From the NCBI GenBank assembly GCA_002415895.1, contig DIAV01000103.1, forward strand, positions 1-13,554: 13,554 bases of DNA. Reading direction: 5' to 3'. Positions 6,819-9,914 of this stretch are shown in pieces. The first letter of the stretch is position 1. Each line of letters starts with the position of its first letter. The notes under the pieces were generated by a model. The model saw only the letters and a list, made by a program, of their open reading frames with translations. It had not been told where the DNA came from and did no database searches. This DNA comes from Anaerolineales bacterium UBA5069 (GTDB lineage Bacteria; Chloroflexota; Anaerolineae; Caldilineales; Caldilineaceae). A program made the translations under genes and the position numbers.

Positions 6819-9800
6819 TTACCTTGTTGCGCGCTGGAAGGTGACGTAATAGCTGGTGTGAATCCCCTTGAAGCGGTTAATCACATCGCCCATGCCTGCG
6901 CCGTTGAGAATATCGCTGGGCATACCCTCCACCTTGACATTATAGGCATAGCCCGCCGCATACATCTGGAAGTTATAGCCAAAATCAGGCGCAGGCTTGT
7001 CTTCAAGCGGCAGCGTCAGGTTGCCATCGCCCCAGTAGACAGTGACAGGCTGCCCCACCACGCGGCTGCCGTTCTCGTCCAACGCATCCACATAGATGTG
7101 GTGCTTGCCGCCCGATTCCTGCTCATCGGCAAAGCGCACTTCAATAATGCGCCAATACTGCTCACCGGGGCCAACGGGAGCGTCGGTAATGGTGACGCCC
7201 AGGGCATCCAGGCGCGTGTCCAAGGTGCGCGGGCGCTCGGGCGCGGCGGCGGCAGCAGCCTCAACGGCGGCGGCCGGCGCGGCCTCGGGCGCGGCATCTA
7301 CAGAGACCGCGGCAAAGGCAGGATCAGCGGGCCCGGCCACGCCCACCAAGTCGGTGGTGAAGGCCACGCCTACGGGCTGCGAGAGGGCCATGAGCGCGGG
7401 TGTGGGCGCAACCAGCGGCGTGGGTGTGGGATAGGGCGTGTAGGTGGGTGCAGGGGCGGCCTGCTCATCGGCGGCAGCAAGCGCGCGCGCAAGGTCGGCA
7501 TCTTCAGCCGCCACTTCGTAGCTGCCCTTCTCATAGATTGCGCTAATTGAACCCGGCCCGGCCGCTGCAACGGCGTTGCGCATGCTTGAAACCAGCCCAG
7601 CCATGCGCAGGAATATCCACGGCACAACCACCACGAGCATCCACAGGATCAGCAGCAGCAGGATGATCGTGCGCACTTTGCCCCAGGTGCTGAGGCCGCC
7701 AAACCACGCGCCCAGCCCCTGACGCGGGGCCTTGGCGGGAGGGTATTCGTCATATTCGTCATAATCGCCACCCTGCGGCGGGTAGCCCTGCGGCCCGTAG
7801 GCTTGTGGCGGATAGGCCTGCTGGCCCTGCTGCGGTTGGCCCTGCGCGTAACCCTGCTGGCCCTGCTGCGGTTGGCCTTGCGGGTAACCCTGCTGGCCTT
7901 GCGGATAGCCTTGCTGACTCTGCTGGTAGCCTTGCTGCCCGTAGCCTTGCTGCCCGTAGCCTTGCTGCCCGTAACCTTGCTGGCCTGGCTGCGCCGGACC
8001 AGCGGGCTGGCGGCCACGCGGCACGGATTGCATGGGTTGCTGGCCGTAGGGCGCATTCTGCAAGCCGGGCGGCGGCCCAGCCATGGCGCCCGGCTGCCCA
8101 AGGCGCTGGCTCAACGCACGGCTCATGTTGCTGGCCAAAGCCGGCGCCACGCTCATGAGCACAGCAAAGTCCGTCTTGCTCAATGTCCACGCGTCAACGT
8201 CGGTTTCGGCCCCAGCCGAGGCGTTGTGCGGCTGGTTACTGAGCAGTGAGCGCTCGCCGCATTCATCGCCCGGCCCCAGCACATAGCTGCCGCCGCTAAT
8301 GGGCTGAATGCGCACCTGGCCGCGCTCAATGAAATACATTTGGTCGGCGGGGGCGTTGATGCGGTAAATGGCTTCGCCCGCGCGGAAGCGCGTGGGCTTG
8401 AGGTATTCGCCCACCTGCTGCATCTCGGTGGCGCTAAGCGGGGCCAGCGTCTCAAAATTGCGCAGACGCGAGTCATCCACATTGGGGGCCGAACCTTGTT
8501 CAAGGCGCGTGGCCAGCGCCTGGCTCAGCACGCGGCTCAGCGGCGGATTCTGCGCAGCCACAGCGTCAAGGTCGGCCTTGTTGAGCAGCCAGAGATTGGT
8601 GTTGCGCGTGGCGGTGGCGTCTTCATTGCGCACCTGGCCGGTGAGCACGCTGAGCTCGCCAAAGAAGCCGTTGCTGCCAATGCGCGCCTTTTCTTCAATG
8701 ATGCCCATGGCGTTCTCGGCAGTGAGCTCGATTTCGCCCTGCTCCACCAGATAAAGCGCCTCGCCTCCTTCACCCACACGGTAGACGCGGTCGCCCGCAG
8801 GCACATGCTGGAGCACCATGCGCTGCGCCAGCGCCTGCATAACAGGGACGGGGGCGTCGGCAAAGAGGGGCATTTGCTGGAGGCGCGCGACGGCCTGCAC
8901 CTGGTCGGTGCGGCTCAGGCGCGCCTTCATGGAGCGCGCCAGGCTGCGCCGCAGACCCGGGTGGCGGCTGTTTACGGCGTGGAAGGTGTCGGCAGAAAAA
9001 CCCCACACCAGGCAATCGGTGGTGGCAAGCGCCGACTGCGTATACGGCTTATTCGTGAGCAGGGCGAGCGCACCCACAATCGAGCCAGGGGTAACCGGCT
9101 GCCCAGATTCACTGCGTGGGCTGCTTTCGCTCTGCTGGGCGGTTTCGCTGCGCGCGCTGCTCTCACCGGTATAGCCGCCATTGGCCGCGGGCTGCGTGGC
9201 GGCTGTGGTGGTTGCAGACGGCGCCAACGAACGGGGCGTAAAGGCGCTGGTGCTGCTGGTGGCGCTGCTGTCGGCCACAGGTTGCACAGGCCTGGCGGCA
9301 GGCGTGCTGGCTGATTGCGCGCCCGGCGCGCCCTCGCCGCGCACTTCCAGCGCGCCCGATTCAAGCACGTAGAAACCCGTGGGCATTTCGCCAACGCGGA
9401 AGAGCGGCTGGCCTGCCGCAATGACGCGCGGCCGCAACTGCGAGGCCACCGCCTGCAGCGTGTTCTGGGGCAGCGTCTGGAGTTCCGGCGTCTTGCTCAG
9501 CCGGTAGACCAGGTATTCCTCCATCTGCACAATCTGCGCGCCAAAACTTTGGCTCAGTTTGATGCCAATTGCGGGGTTCTGCACAATCAGGTCGCGCAAG
9601 GCGCGATCCGAAAGCATCCAGTAGTCCACGGCCGAGACTGCCTGCGCGGTCACATCCTCGGGGGCGGCGCGAAAGAGCGCTGCATCTCCCAGAATGCTGC
9701 CCGGGCCGAGCGTGGCCAGCGTCTGGCCGCCCTCGGTGGTCATGCGCACAAAACCCTGTTCCAGCAGGAAGAGACCGCCCGCTGGATCACCAGCGCGGAA

Positions 9801-9914
9801 GAGTGTGCTCCCGTTGGCTATTTGCCCCTGGGTGAAACCTTCGCCCAGCTTTTCGCGCTCGGCATCCGTAAGCCCGGCAAAAAGCGGCGCAAAGCTTAGA
9901 AATTGATCTTTCAA
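6819..9914 (-). CDS. Four-cNBD membrane protein with Q/G/Y-rich repeat and outer beta domain
   Basis: A 1031-residue protein. In order: cyclic-nucleotide-binding-fold domains at about 7-121, 145-327, 343-474 and 484-607; a Gln/Gly/Tyr-rich repeat segment (625-713); an acidic DYDEYDEY patch (717-724); one membrane helix (747-771, VRTIILLLLILWMLVVVV); a Thr-Pro linker (about 820-840) and Ala-rich stretch; and a C-terminal beta domain (about 905-1031). With no signal peptide and positive residues before the helix, the cNBDs should face the cytoplasm and the C-terminus the outside. Glu/Arg of the phosphate-binding cassette are both present only in cNBD3 (FGEL, Glu420, Arg429). cNBD2 is split by an 84-residue Ser/Thr/Ala insert (192-275). 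I start at TTG 9912-9914 because AGGAGG lies at 9919-9924; the upstream in-frame GTG would put this site inside the gene. The function is unknown; it is not a channel or a CRP-type regulator (no pore, no HTH). Confidence 0.88.
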   Translation of the reverse strand: MKDQFLSFAPLFAGLTDAEREKLGEGFTQGQIANGSTLFRAGDPAGGLFLLEQGFVRMTTEGGQTLATLGPGSILGDAALFRAAPEDVTAQAVSAVDYWMLSDRALRDLIVQNPAIGIKLSQSFGAQIVQMEEYLVYRLSKTPELQTLPQNTLQAVASQLRPRVIAAGQPLFRVGEMPTGFYVLESGALEVRGEGAPGAQSASTPAARPVQPVADSSATSSTSAFTPRSLAPSATTTAATQPAANGGYTGESSARSETAQQSESSPRSESGQPVTPGSIVGALALLTNKPYTQSALATTDCLVWGFSADTFHAVNSRHPGLRRSLARSMKARLSRTDQVQAVARLQQMPLFADAPVPVMQALAQRMVLQHVPAGDRVYRVGEGGEALYLVEQGEIELTAENAMGIIEEKARIGSNGFFGELSVLTGQVRNEDATATRNTNLWLLNKADLDAVAAQNPPLSRVLSQALATRLEQGSAPNVDDSRLRNFETLAPLSATEMQQVGEYLKPTRFRAGEAIYRINAPADQMYFIERGQVRIQPISGGSYVLGPGDECGERSLLSNQPHNASAGAETDVDAWTLSKTDFAVLMSVAPALASNMSRALSQRLGQPGAMAGPPPGLQNAPYGQQPMQSVPRGRQPAGPAQPGQQGYGQQGYGQQGYGQQGYQQSQQGYPQGQQGYPQGQPQQGQQGYAQGQPQQGQQAYPPQAYGPQGYPPQGGDYDEYDEYPPAKAPRQGLGAWFGGLSTWGKVRTIILLLLILWMLVVVVPWIFLRMAGLVSSMRNAVAAAGPGSISAIYEKGSYEVAAEDADLARALAAADEQAAPAPTYTPYPTPTPLVAPTPALMALSQPVGVAFTTDLVGVAGPADPAFAAVSVDAAPEAAPAAAVEAAAAAAPERPRTLDTRLDALGVTITDAPVGPGEQYWRIIEVRFADEQESGGKHHIYVDALDENGSRVVGQPVTVYWGDGNLTLPLEDKPAPDFGYNFQMYAAGYAYNVKVEGMPSDILNGAGMGDVINRFKGIHTSYYVTFQRATR
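7776..8042 (-). repeat. In-gene tandem repeats encoding the QQGYG/QGQ segment
   Basis: Four successive 15-bp units (7926-7940, 7941-7955, 7956-7970, 7971-7985), the first three identical (GTAGCCTTGCTGCCC on the plus strand), encode GQQGY repeats. A 36-bp unit is repeated at 7817-7852 and 7853-7888 and encodes the QGQPQQGQQGY-type repeats. All unit lengths are multiples of three, so copy-number changes would keep the reading frame. Confidence 0.85.

Follow-up and report, generated by a model that had tools for sequence, protein, structure and literature searches.

A predicted single-pass membrane protein with four cyclic nucleotide-binding folds beside an ECF sigma/anti-sigma pair in a Caldilineaceae bacterium

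Cyclic nucleotide-binding domains (cNBDs) are known in transcription factors, kinases and channels, and the envelope is known to be controlled by cyclic dinucleotides as second messengers, as in LapD, whose receptor module is GGDEF-EAL-like. The gene described here lies at 6819..9914 on the minus strand of a 13,554-nucleotide stretch of DNA, analysed as a whole and called the window below, from Anaerolineales bacterium UBA5069 (Chloroflexota; Anaerolineae; Caldilineales; Caldilineaceae; GenBank assembly GCA_002415895.1, contig DIAV01000103.1, positions 1 to 13,554). It encodes a 1031-residue protein predicted to consist of four cNBD folds, one membrane helix and an extracytoplasmic beta domain (the ectodomain). 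The main functional clue is its locus, with an SH3b-domain lipoprotein and a divergent pair for an extracytoplasmic function (ECF) sigma factor and an anti-sigma-like protein, together with relatives that carry wall-type modules. We favour, at a probability of roughly 0.4, the explanation that the protein would be a nucleotide-responsive cytoplasmic array tethered at a wall-facing complex belonging to the ECF sigma/anti-sigma module.

Several described systems resemble parts of this arrangement. The best whole-model Foldseek match is the Plasmodium PKG array (PDB 5dzc, 5dyk; 608 columns and E 2.4e-33 for 5dzc), with TM-scores so low (0.18/0.21) that individual domains match and not one rigid arrangement. 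Both proteins have mixed sites, PKG combining three binding motifs with a degenerate one according to the accessible part of PMC6337498, but PKG has a kinase domain where the window protein has a transmembrane helix and ectodomain instead; with no kinase family in its Pfam scan, the window protein was rejected as a PKG. Tandem cNBDs of PKA regulatory subunits, including trypanosomatid PKAR (6flo, 6hyq), were also among the Foldseek matches, although the window protein has no kinase partner. The c-di-GMP receptor LapD likewise links a cytoplasmic messenger receptor across the membrane to an extracytoplasmic output (PMC3032545, available in part), but the Pfam matches of the window protein include no GGDEF-EAL-type module, and membership of the LapD family was dismissed. 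MloK1 and other cNBD channels are membrane proteins with a cNBD, and there is a sequence match to cNBD4, whereas the window protein has no pore, a single transmembrane segment and cNBDs that precede it. The cNBD part also matches Pycsar effectors (PADLOC PycTIR), the best stretches falling on cNBD residues; a Pycsar effector was discounted, no TIR or cyclase being found by Pfam among the ten window proteins scanned. A CRP/FNR regulator was discarded as well (Pfam shows no HTH family, and NCBIfam regulator models align below cut-off through their cNBD part), as was a family 2B encapsulin with its HK97 shell (NCBIfam, 98.8 bits against a cut-off of 400, with the best stretch at profile positions 71-198/450 and on cNBD3). 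Modules of ECF sigma factors and zinc-type anti-sigma factors are matched by the sigma gene and the zf-HC2 protein with a hydrophobic segment that adjoin the cNBD locus, and no such module with a cNBD-array membrane protein came up in the open-licence literature searched. These searches also returned no description of the architecture or the locus, in agreement with a sequence-only reading of the window that knew of no described system with such a domain order. Within the reach of these searches, known parts are joined here in a new combination.

The reading frame starts at TTG 9914, where the catalogue entry for the identical protein (P0002) also begins, and its stop ends at 6819; the frame is additionally open from a GTG at 9953. 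The sole Pfam family above cut-off is cNMP_binding (PF00027; 214.7 bits against 27.5), in five stretches because a low-complexity insert of about 68 residues splits cNBD2. AlphaFold2, run with a 67-row alignment (A1; the window protein and 66 of 120 listed homologs, 151 having been found), predicts four cNBD folds, namely cNBD1 at residues 1-145 (9480..9914, minus strand, as for every feature of this gene), cNBD2 at 146-340 (8895..9479), cNBD3 at 341-482 (8469..8894) and cNBD4 at 483-612 (8079..8468). Beyond cNBD4 the model has disorder (610-732), a helix (743-782), short helices as far as residue 818, a stalk that is also disordered and, starting near residue 894, a beta domain. The pLDDT is 83-97 in most 10-residue blocks of the cNBD folds, the lower blocks all being in cNBD3 (78 at 381-390, 73 at 421-430, part of the cassette, and 66 at 471-480); in the full chain it is below 50 in the linker 610-732 and 81-98 in ectodomain blocks, and the pTM of 0.52 leaves the relative placement of the domains unsettled by the model. 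The domain segments aligned across the 67 rows with mean gap fractions of 0-4%; a separate alignment (A3) comprised 28 of the 120 sequences listed (144 found). The sequence-only reading had named structure prediction as a possible refutation, and the model returned the four cNBD folds, the membrane helix and the beta domain after it that this reading had claimed; Pfam, AlphaFold2 and hydrophobicity further agree with it that no pore, kinase, cyclase or DNA-binding domain is present.

Residues 613-725 (7740..8078) form a linker, predicted to be disordered, with 83% Q/G/Y/P over 113 residues. The Tyr/Gln/Gly segment seen by the earlier reader is therefore real in the window protein, but it is not conserved: the content is at least 73% in five close relatives only, and the other rows have 26-122 residues at 12-65%. 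The insert of cNBD2 (residues 201-268, 9111-9314) is likewise absent from most relatives, its column block being 92% gap, and judged from the alignment both segments are recent and not conserved. Lineage-specific occurrence rules out the Q/G/Y repeat as a functional core, and the proposed control of clustering leans on that repeat. The hydrophobic core of the membrane helix is at residues 750-768 (7611..7667) within the predicted helix 743-782; one hydrophobic segment occurs at this place in 65/67 sequences and none elsewhere in any of the 67, so that a cNBD ion channel was also rejected. By alignment and AlphaFold2, juxtamembrane helices (769-822) and a TPTP-rich stalk (823-893) follow at 7236..7610. 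The ectodomain (residues 894-1031, 6822..7235) is the best conserved segment, at 3.44 bits per column across the 67 rows, with cNBD3 second at 3.33 and the linker at 1.81. Modelled alone (a 262-residue piece with 36 of 49 homologs, alignment A2), it reached a pLDDT above 90 over most of residues 130-262. Its structure matches are weak ones to transthyretin/Cna-B-like sandwiches, the VIA-align rows being mainly on model residues 168-262, and its profile found none among solved structures by sequence (best E 0.55). Compared with the profile of the neighbouring lipoprotein, it gave an hhalign probability of 97.8 (E 8e-13); BLASTP of the four-cNBD protein against the SH3b lipoprotein of the window showed no meaningful similarity, this homology being visible by profile comparison only. 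An ectodomain of the same kind is combined with SH3b in P0163.

Within the window's family, the aligned residues indicate that cNBD3 alone keeps the cassette Glu and Arg together (65/67, against 2/67 for cNBD4 and 0/67 for both cNBD1 and cNBD2). Its cassette (8589-8666, minus strand; G419, E420 and R429 retained), the candidate ligand site, has Gly in 67/67 rows, Glu in 65/67 and Arg in 67/67, and the Arg is followed by x-E-D-A-T, of which E, D, A and T are invariant. Over the same rows, cNBD1 has Glu or Asp in 67/67 with a variable residue at the Arg position, cNBD2 has lost both (Ala replaces Glu in 60, Tyr replaces Arg in 41), and cNBD4 retains Gly-Glu (Glu in 67/67) with His at the Arg position in 63. 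In a wider set of 68 members, 64 from the class and four from outside it, Glu and Arg occur together in cNBD3 of 49/68, cNBD4 of 26/67, cNBD1 of 15/63 and cNBD2 of 0/63. Canonical cNBD3 cassettes are found outside the window's family, for example FFGEMALLTGRPRSATA in L136, which makes it probable that the ancestral domain had a working site and that the E-D pair following the Arg arose as a change within the window's family.

Altered cassettes of cAMP-independent trypanosomatid PKAR can bind nucleosides instead of cAMP, the nucleoside type being marked, in the accessible part of the paper, by a Glu at the PKARI-alpha A202 position and loss of R209 (PMC10959531). In this the window's family differs from PKAR: the Glu is present in 0/67 rows at residues 79, 284, 422 or 556, and a trypanosomatid-type nucleoside cNBD was rejected for it. 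An acid is frequent at this position in cNBD1 of the wider set, where the residue-79 column holds one in 50/63 (Glu in 7), 34 of these without the Arg, which suggests a partial likeness to nucleoside-binding cassettes outside the window's family; in other families cNBD1 may thus bind a different ligand or no ligand at all. Among 41 genomes, this one and 40 relatives, 28 have class III cyclase matches and 39 a diadenylate cyclase (c-di-AMP synthase) domain. Nucleotide or partner binding is plausible, above all for cNBD3.

The lipoprotein-like gene (10014..11474, minus strand) lies upstream of the cNBD gene on the same strand and contains an SH3_3 domain (about 10620-10775) and, by profile comparison, a C-terminal domain homologous to the ectodomain (about 10017-10439); SH3b is a wall-binding module. 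The ECF-type sigma factor, over the Pfam cut-off, is encoded divergently at 12063..12665 (plus strand), and the anti-sigma-like gene at 12695..13554 (plus strand), its frame passing the window end. The latter protein has a hydrophobic segment and a zf-HC2 match of 21.1 bits, below the cut-off of 22.2, the same domain being over cut-off in 5/5 orthologs scanned and in L072. At this locus an ECF sigma factor stands next to a zinc-type anti-sigma protein with a transmembrane segment. Both are read in one direction, while a tRNA-Leu(CAA) between the two arms (11725..11808, minus strand), the lipoprotein and the cNBD gene are read in the other. Among the 63 genomes with a family profile match of at least 300 bits, the sigma ortholog is on the same contig as the cNBD gene in 40 and divergent in all 40, at 524-2389 bases; from the Sigma70_r2 background (301 matches in 25 genomes, about 123 Mb), the chance of a divergent match within 2.4 kb is about 0.3%. 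Of 44 loci with at least 4.5 kb upstream, 30 have a divergent sigma, 29 the lipoprotein profile, 23 both and 28 sigma plus anti-sigma, counts that come from a crude gene-calling script, which missed some sigmas found by genome searches (L042/G009, L149/G124), and that include weak lipoprotein profile hits of 22-36 bits. Elsewhere, in 52 further loci (233 kb), the sigma profile matched once, next to a gene for a stand-alone ectodomain, and the lipoprotein profile 10 times, several of these hits falling in loci that had been retrieved on account of that similarity. The tRNA-Leu(CAA) is present in 40/45 loci scanned, one of which (L055) overlaps the window. In G029 the sigma/anti-sigma pair faces a separate protein with a transmembrane segment and ectodomain, and the four-cNBD gene is on another contig, which indicates that the ectodomain can stay at the sigma locus without cNBDs.

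A protein search found 151 homologs, the 120 listed being 805-1031 residues long, and the names among the matches listed include Caldilinea sp., Caldilineaceae, Chloroflexi and Chloroflexota. The 63 genomes at or above 300 bits, in two of which (G054, G164) the match contains stops, are among 199 sampled for the class and belong to 23 of 52 numbered families. Of 301 genomes sampled across the phylum, three score 300 bits or more, and each belongs to the same class, this genome being one of them; beyond that class, G216 and G228 encode a shorter homolog (about 245 bits), G224 and G256 a weaker one. The protein query found some match in all 41 genomes, the listed matches in several families being short (cNBDs or ectodomain alone), and a single-sequence scan of genome contigs found two distant loci only, through residues 499-605. 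The counts exclude L056, a 920-residue protein of the same genome that BLAST places in the cluster although the family profile gives it 38 bits. The 68 members have four cNBDs in 59 cases (the split domain of the window protein counted once), three in five, some of them cut by contig ends, and two in four; an ectodomain hit is found in 50/68, nine of these below 25 bits. Pfam, run on 52 sequences (51 members), recognised two with LysM and a single one with SH3_3; on the outer side, 3/68 relatives, with two or three cNBDs, have wall-type modules. L168 and L169, from outside the class, combine two canonical cNBDs, a transmembrane segment, LysM and ectodomain, with sigma and anti-sigma genes head-to-head; L062 has three cNBDs, a transmembrane segment and two SH3b domains in a frame that starts at a contig edge. 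LysM binds peptidoglycan (PMC4004799, partial text), and by analogy wall contact would be the likeliest role of the outer half.

In the explanation that we favour, the four cNBDs would make up an array in the cytoplasm in which cNBD3 is the one probable ligand site and the three altered domains are structural, allosteric or docking partners. The flexible linker, single membrane helix and stalk would hold this array at the ectodomain, which is expected to work outside with the SH3b lipoprotein, given the homologous domain and probable wall-binding module of the latter. Ligand at cNBD3 would alter which cytoplasmic partner the array holds, most likely the divergently encoded sigma/anti-sigma pair, so that envelope state and nucleotide state could be read together. 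The observed basis is the predicted architecture, a conserved cNBD3 site, two homologous outer domains, the conserved locus and LysM/SH3b modules in three relatives; the explanation adds to it that a nucleotide would bind, that the wall would be contacted, that signals would run in the direction described and that sigma or anti-sigma would be touched. The pair was chosen as best guess for the partner because it is the most conserved regulatory neighbour, and the frequent adjacency of the sigma factor suggests a link of internal nucleotide signals to the cell envelope. Opposed to this is a LapD-like inside-out receptor, in which nucleotide binding, relayed through the helix, would change what the outer domain binds or exposes (lipoprotein, wall or protease). 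Cytoplasmic ligand-type domains, one helix, a highly conserved outer domain, its homolog on the neighbouring lipoprotein and the precedent of LapD itself (PMC3032545, in part) all fit such a receptor, but the 26-122 residues between cNBD4 and the helix, for which disorder is predicted in the window protein, are hard to reconcile with a conformational relay and suit a tether better, and no protease or adhesin partner was identified at the locus; we regard the relay as rather unlikely.

Several observations weigh against the tethered, nucleotide-responsive array. Glu and Arg are together in none of the four domains of 14/68 wider members, two unusual acids follow the Arg of cNBD3 in the window's family (R-x-E-D-A-T), and this cassette is among the lower-confidence stretches of the AlphaFold2 model. 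Class III cyclase matches are missing from 13/41 genomes, including G022 (Asp and Arg in cNBD3) as well as G002 and G011 (Glu and Arg there); those in this genome, though above the cut-off of 21.9 bits, are weak at 36 and 26.5, which makes cAMP or cGMP doubtful as ligand. The altered sites, now including the loss of Glu and/or Arg in three of four domains, and the missing cyclases would also suit a ligand-free scaffold, four pseudo-receptor cNBDs kept for protein-protein contacts in a structural organiser of an envelope complex; the near-invariant Glu and Arg of cNBD3 and the canonical cassettes of other families are nevertheless hard to explain without a ligand, and we think this scaffold unlikely. 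Other objections concern the locus. A sigma ortholog (E <= 1e-40) occurs in 182/199 genomes of the class against 63 with the cNBD protein, so the sigma factor does not depend on the latter; no neighbouring sigma is listed for 23/63 genomes, some because of contig ends, others (G029, G121, G191, G035) despite contig remaining at the expected place. The ectodomain is missing from some members (L047, L048), and L164, L166 and L167 keep a lipoprotein-like neighbour without a recognised ectodomain, which contradicts the strict co-loss of ectodomain and lipoprotein that L047 and L048 had suggested. ECF promoter motifs are of GGAAC/CGT type, and in 41 regions cut between the arms, paired motifs were no commoner than in shuffles toward the operon (0, 4 and 9, with 1.0, 4.2 and 7.0 expected) and showed no excess toward sigma either. 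The gene might instead serve chiefly as a target of the neighbouring sigma and encode a surface protein that is produced under envelope stress and does not regulate that factor. The far wider spread of the sigma ortholog accords with this, as does the ectodomain, which seems to serve these bacteria as a surface module of general use and occurs in addition with FHA, weak TPR and DUF5107 parts; but such an effector leaves four cytoplasmic cNBDs and a conserved cassette unexplained and lacks the enrichment of paired motifs ahead of the operon, and we consider it improbable.

If the tethered array is real, cNBD signalling would reach as far as control of the envelope in a phylum that has been little studied, through a widely conserved single-pass cNBD-array receptor with wall-type domains and a tie to an ECF sigma locus. 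Members with two, three or four cNBDs and canonical to degenerate cassettes would offer a natural series for studies of receptor-array evolution. A more far-reaching proposal, which we hold to be doubtful, is a new class of bacterial transducer. Its transmembrane cNBD array would link a nucleotide of the cell interior, which may be neither cAMP nor cGMP, to a wall-contacting surface complex and thence to the switch between ECF sigma and anti-sigma; the two to four cNBDs would have been tuned by site gain and loss across the taxonomic class, and some, such as cNBD1 of other families, might have turned to a different ligand, for example a nucleoside.

Some further observations concern the ectodomain and the surroundings of the locus. 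The ectodomain is also C-terminal in L071:4483-5673 (minus strand), with FHA and a weak transmembrane segment, in L073:5044-6222 (minus strand), with a transmembrane segment and a sub-threshold TPR match, and in L066:2622-5705 (plus strand), with DUF5107. At L072:3660-8583, sigma and anti-sigma genes face three transmembrane-stalk proteins, one with the ectodomain, and the four-cNBD gene of that genome is elsewhere. Shorter cNBD proteins (frames of 587-624 residues) are divergent to a sigma ortholog by coordinates, for example in G055:C22, G133:C86 and G087:C409. An intramembrane protease of the PrsW type (87 bits), a kind known to cut anti-sigma factors, is joined to two cNBDs at L171:3145-4848 (plus strand), a locus without a sigma profile hit. 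The window also has genes for a LysM protein (1986-3146, plus strand) and a sortase-domain protein (3296-4054, plus strand), recognised by Pfam and without shared clusters in the neighbour comparison, and, downstream of the cNBD gene, a short open reading frame (6000-6368, minus strand) that reads like a transposase tail of an IS66-like kind.

Between the arms, GGAAC alone is commoner toward the operon than expected (31/41 regions, 21.6 expected), a count in which the tRNA gene, which contains the pentamer, was unmasked. An unsupervised motif search recovered the tRNA-Leu and, with tRNAs masked where found (tRNA-Leu(CAA) inside 33/41 regions), gave a housekeeping-type TTGAC-N18-TATA pair in 21/32 regions below 1 kb, the promoter-like element of this type in the window being at 11882-11911 (minus strand). 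On the sigma strand there is an extended -10-like element, TGCTATAATGGC (11641-11652, plus strand), and letters resembling it, ATTATA, stand after the tRNA in L136 and L147. By its position, the TGCTATAATGGC element could drive a sigma transcript antisense through the tRNA.

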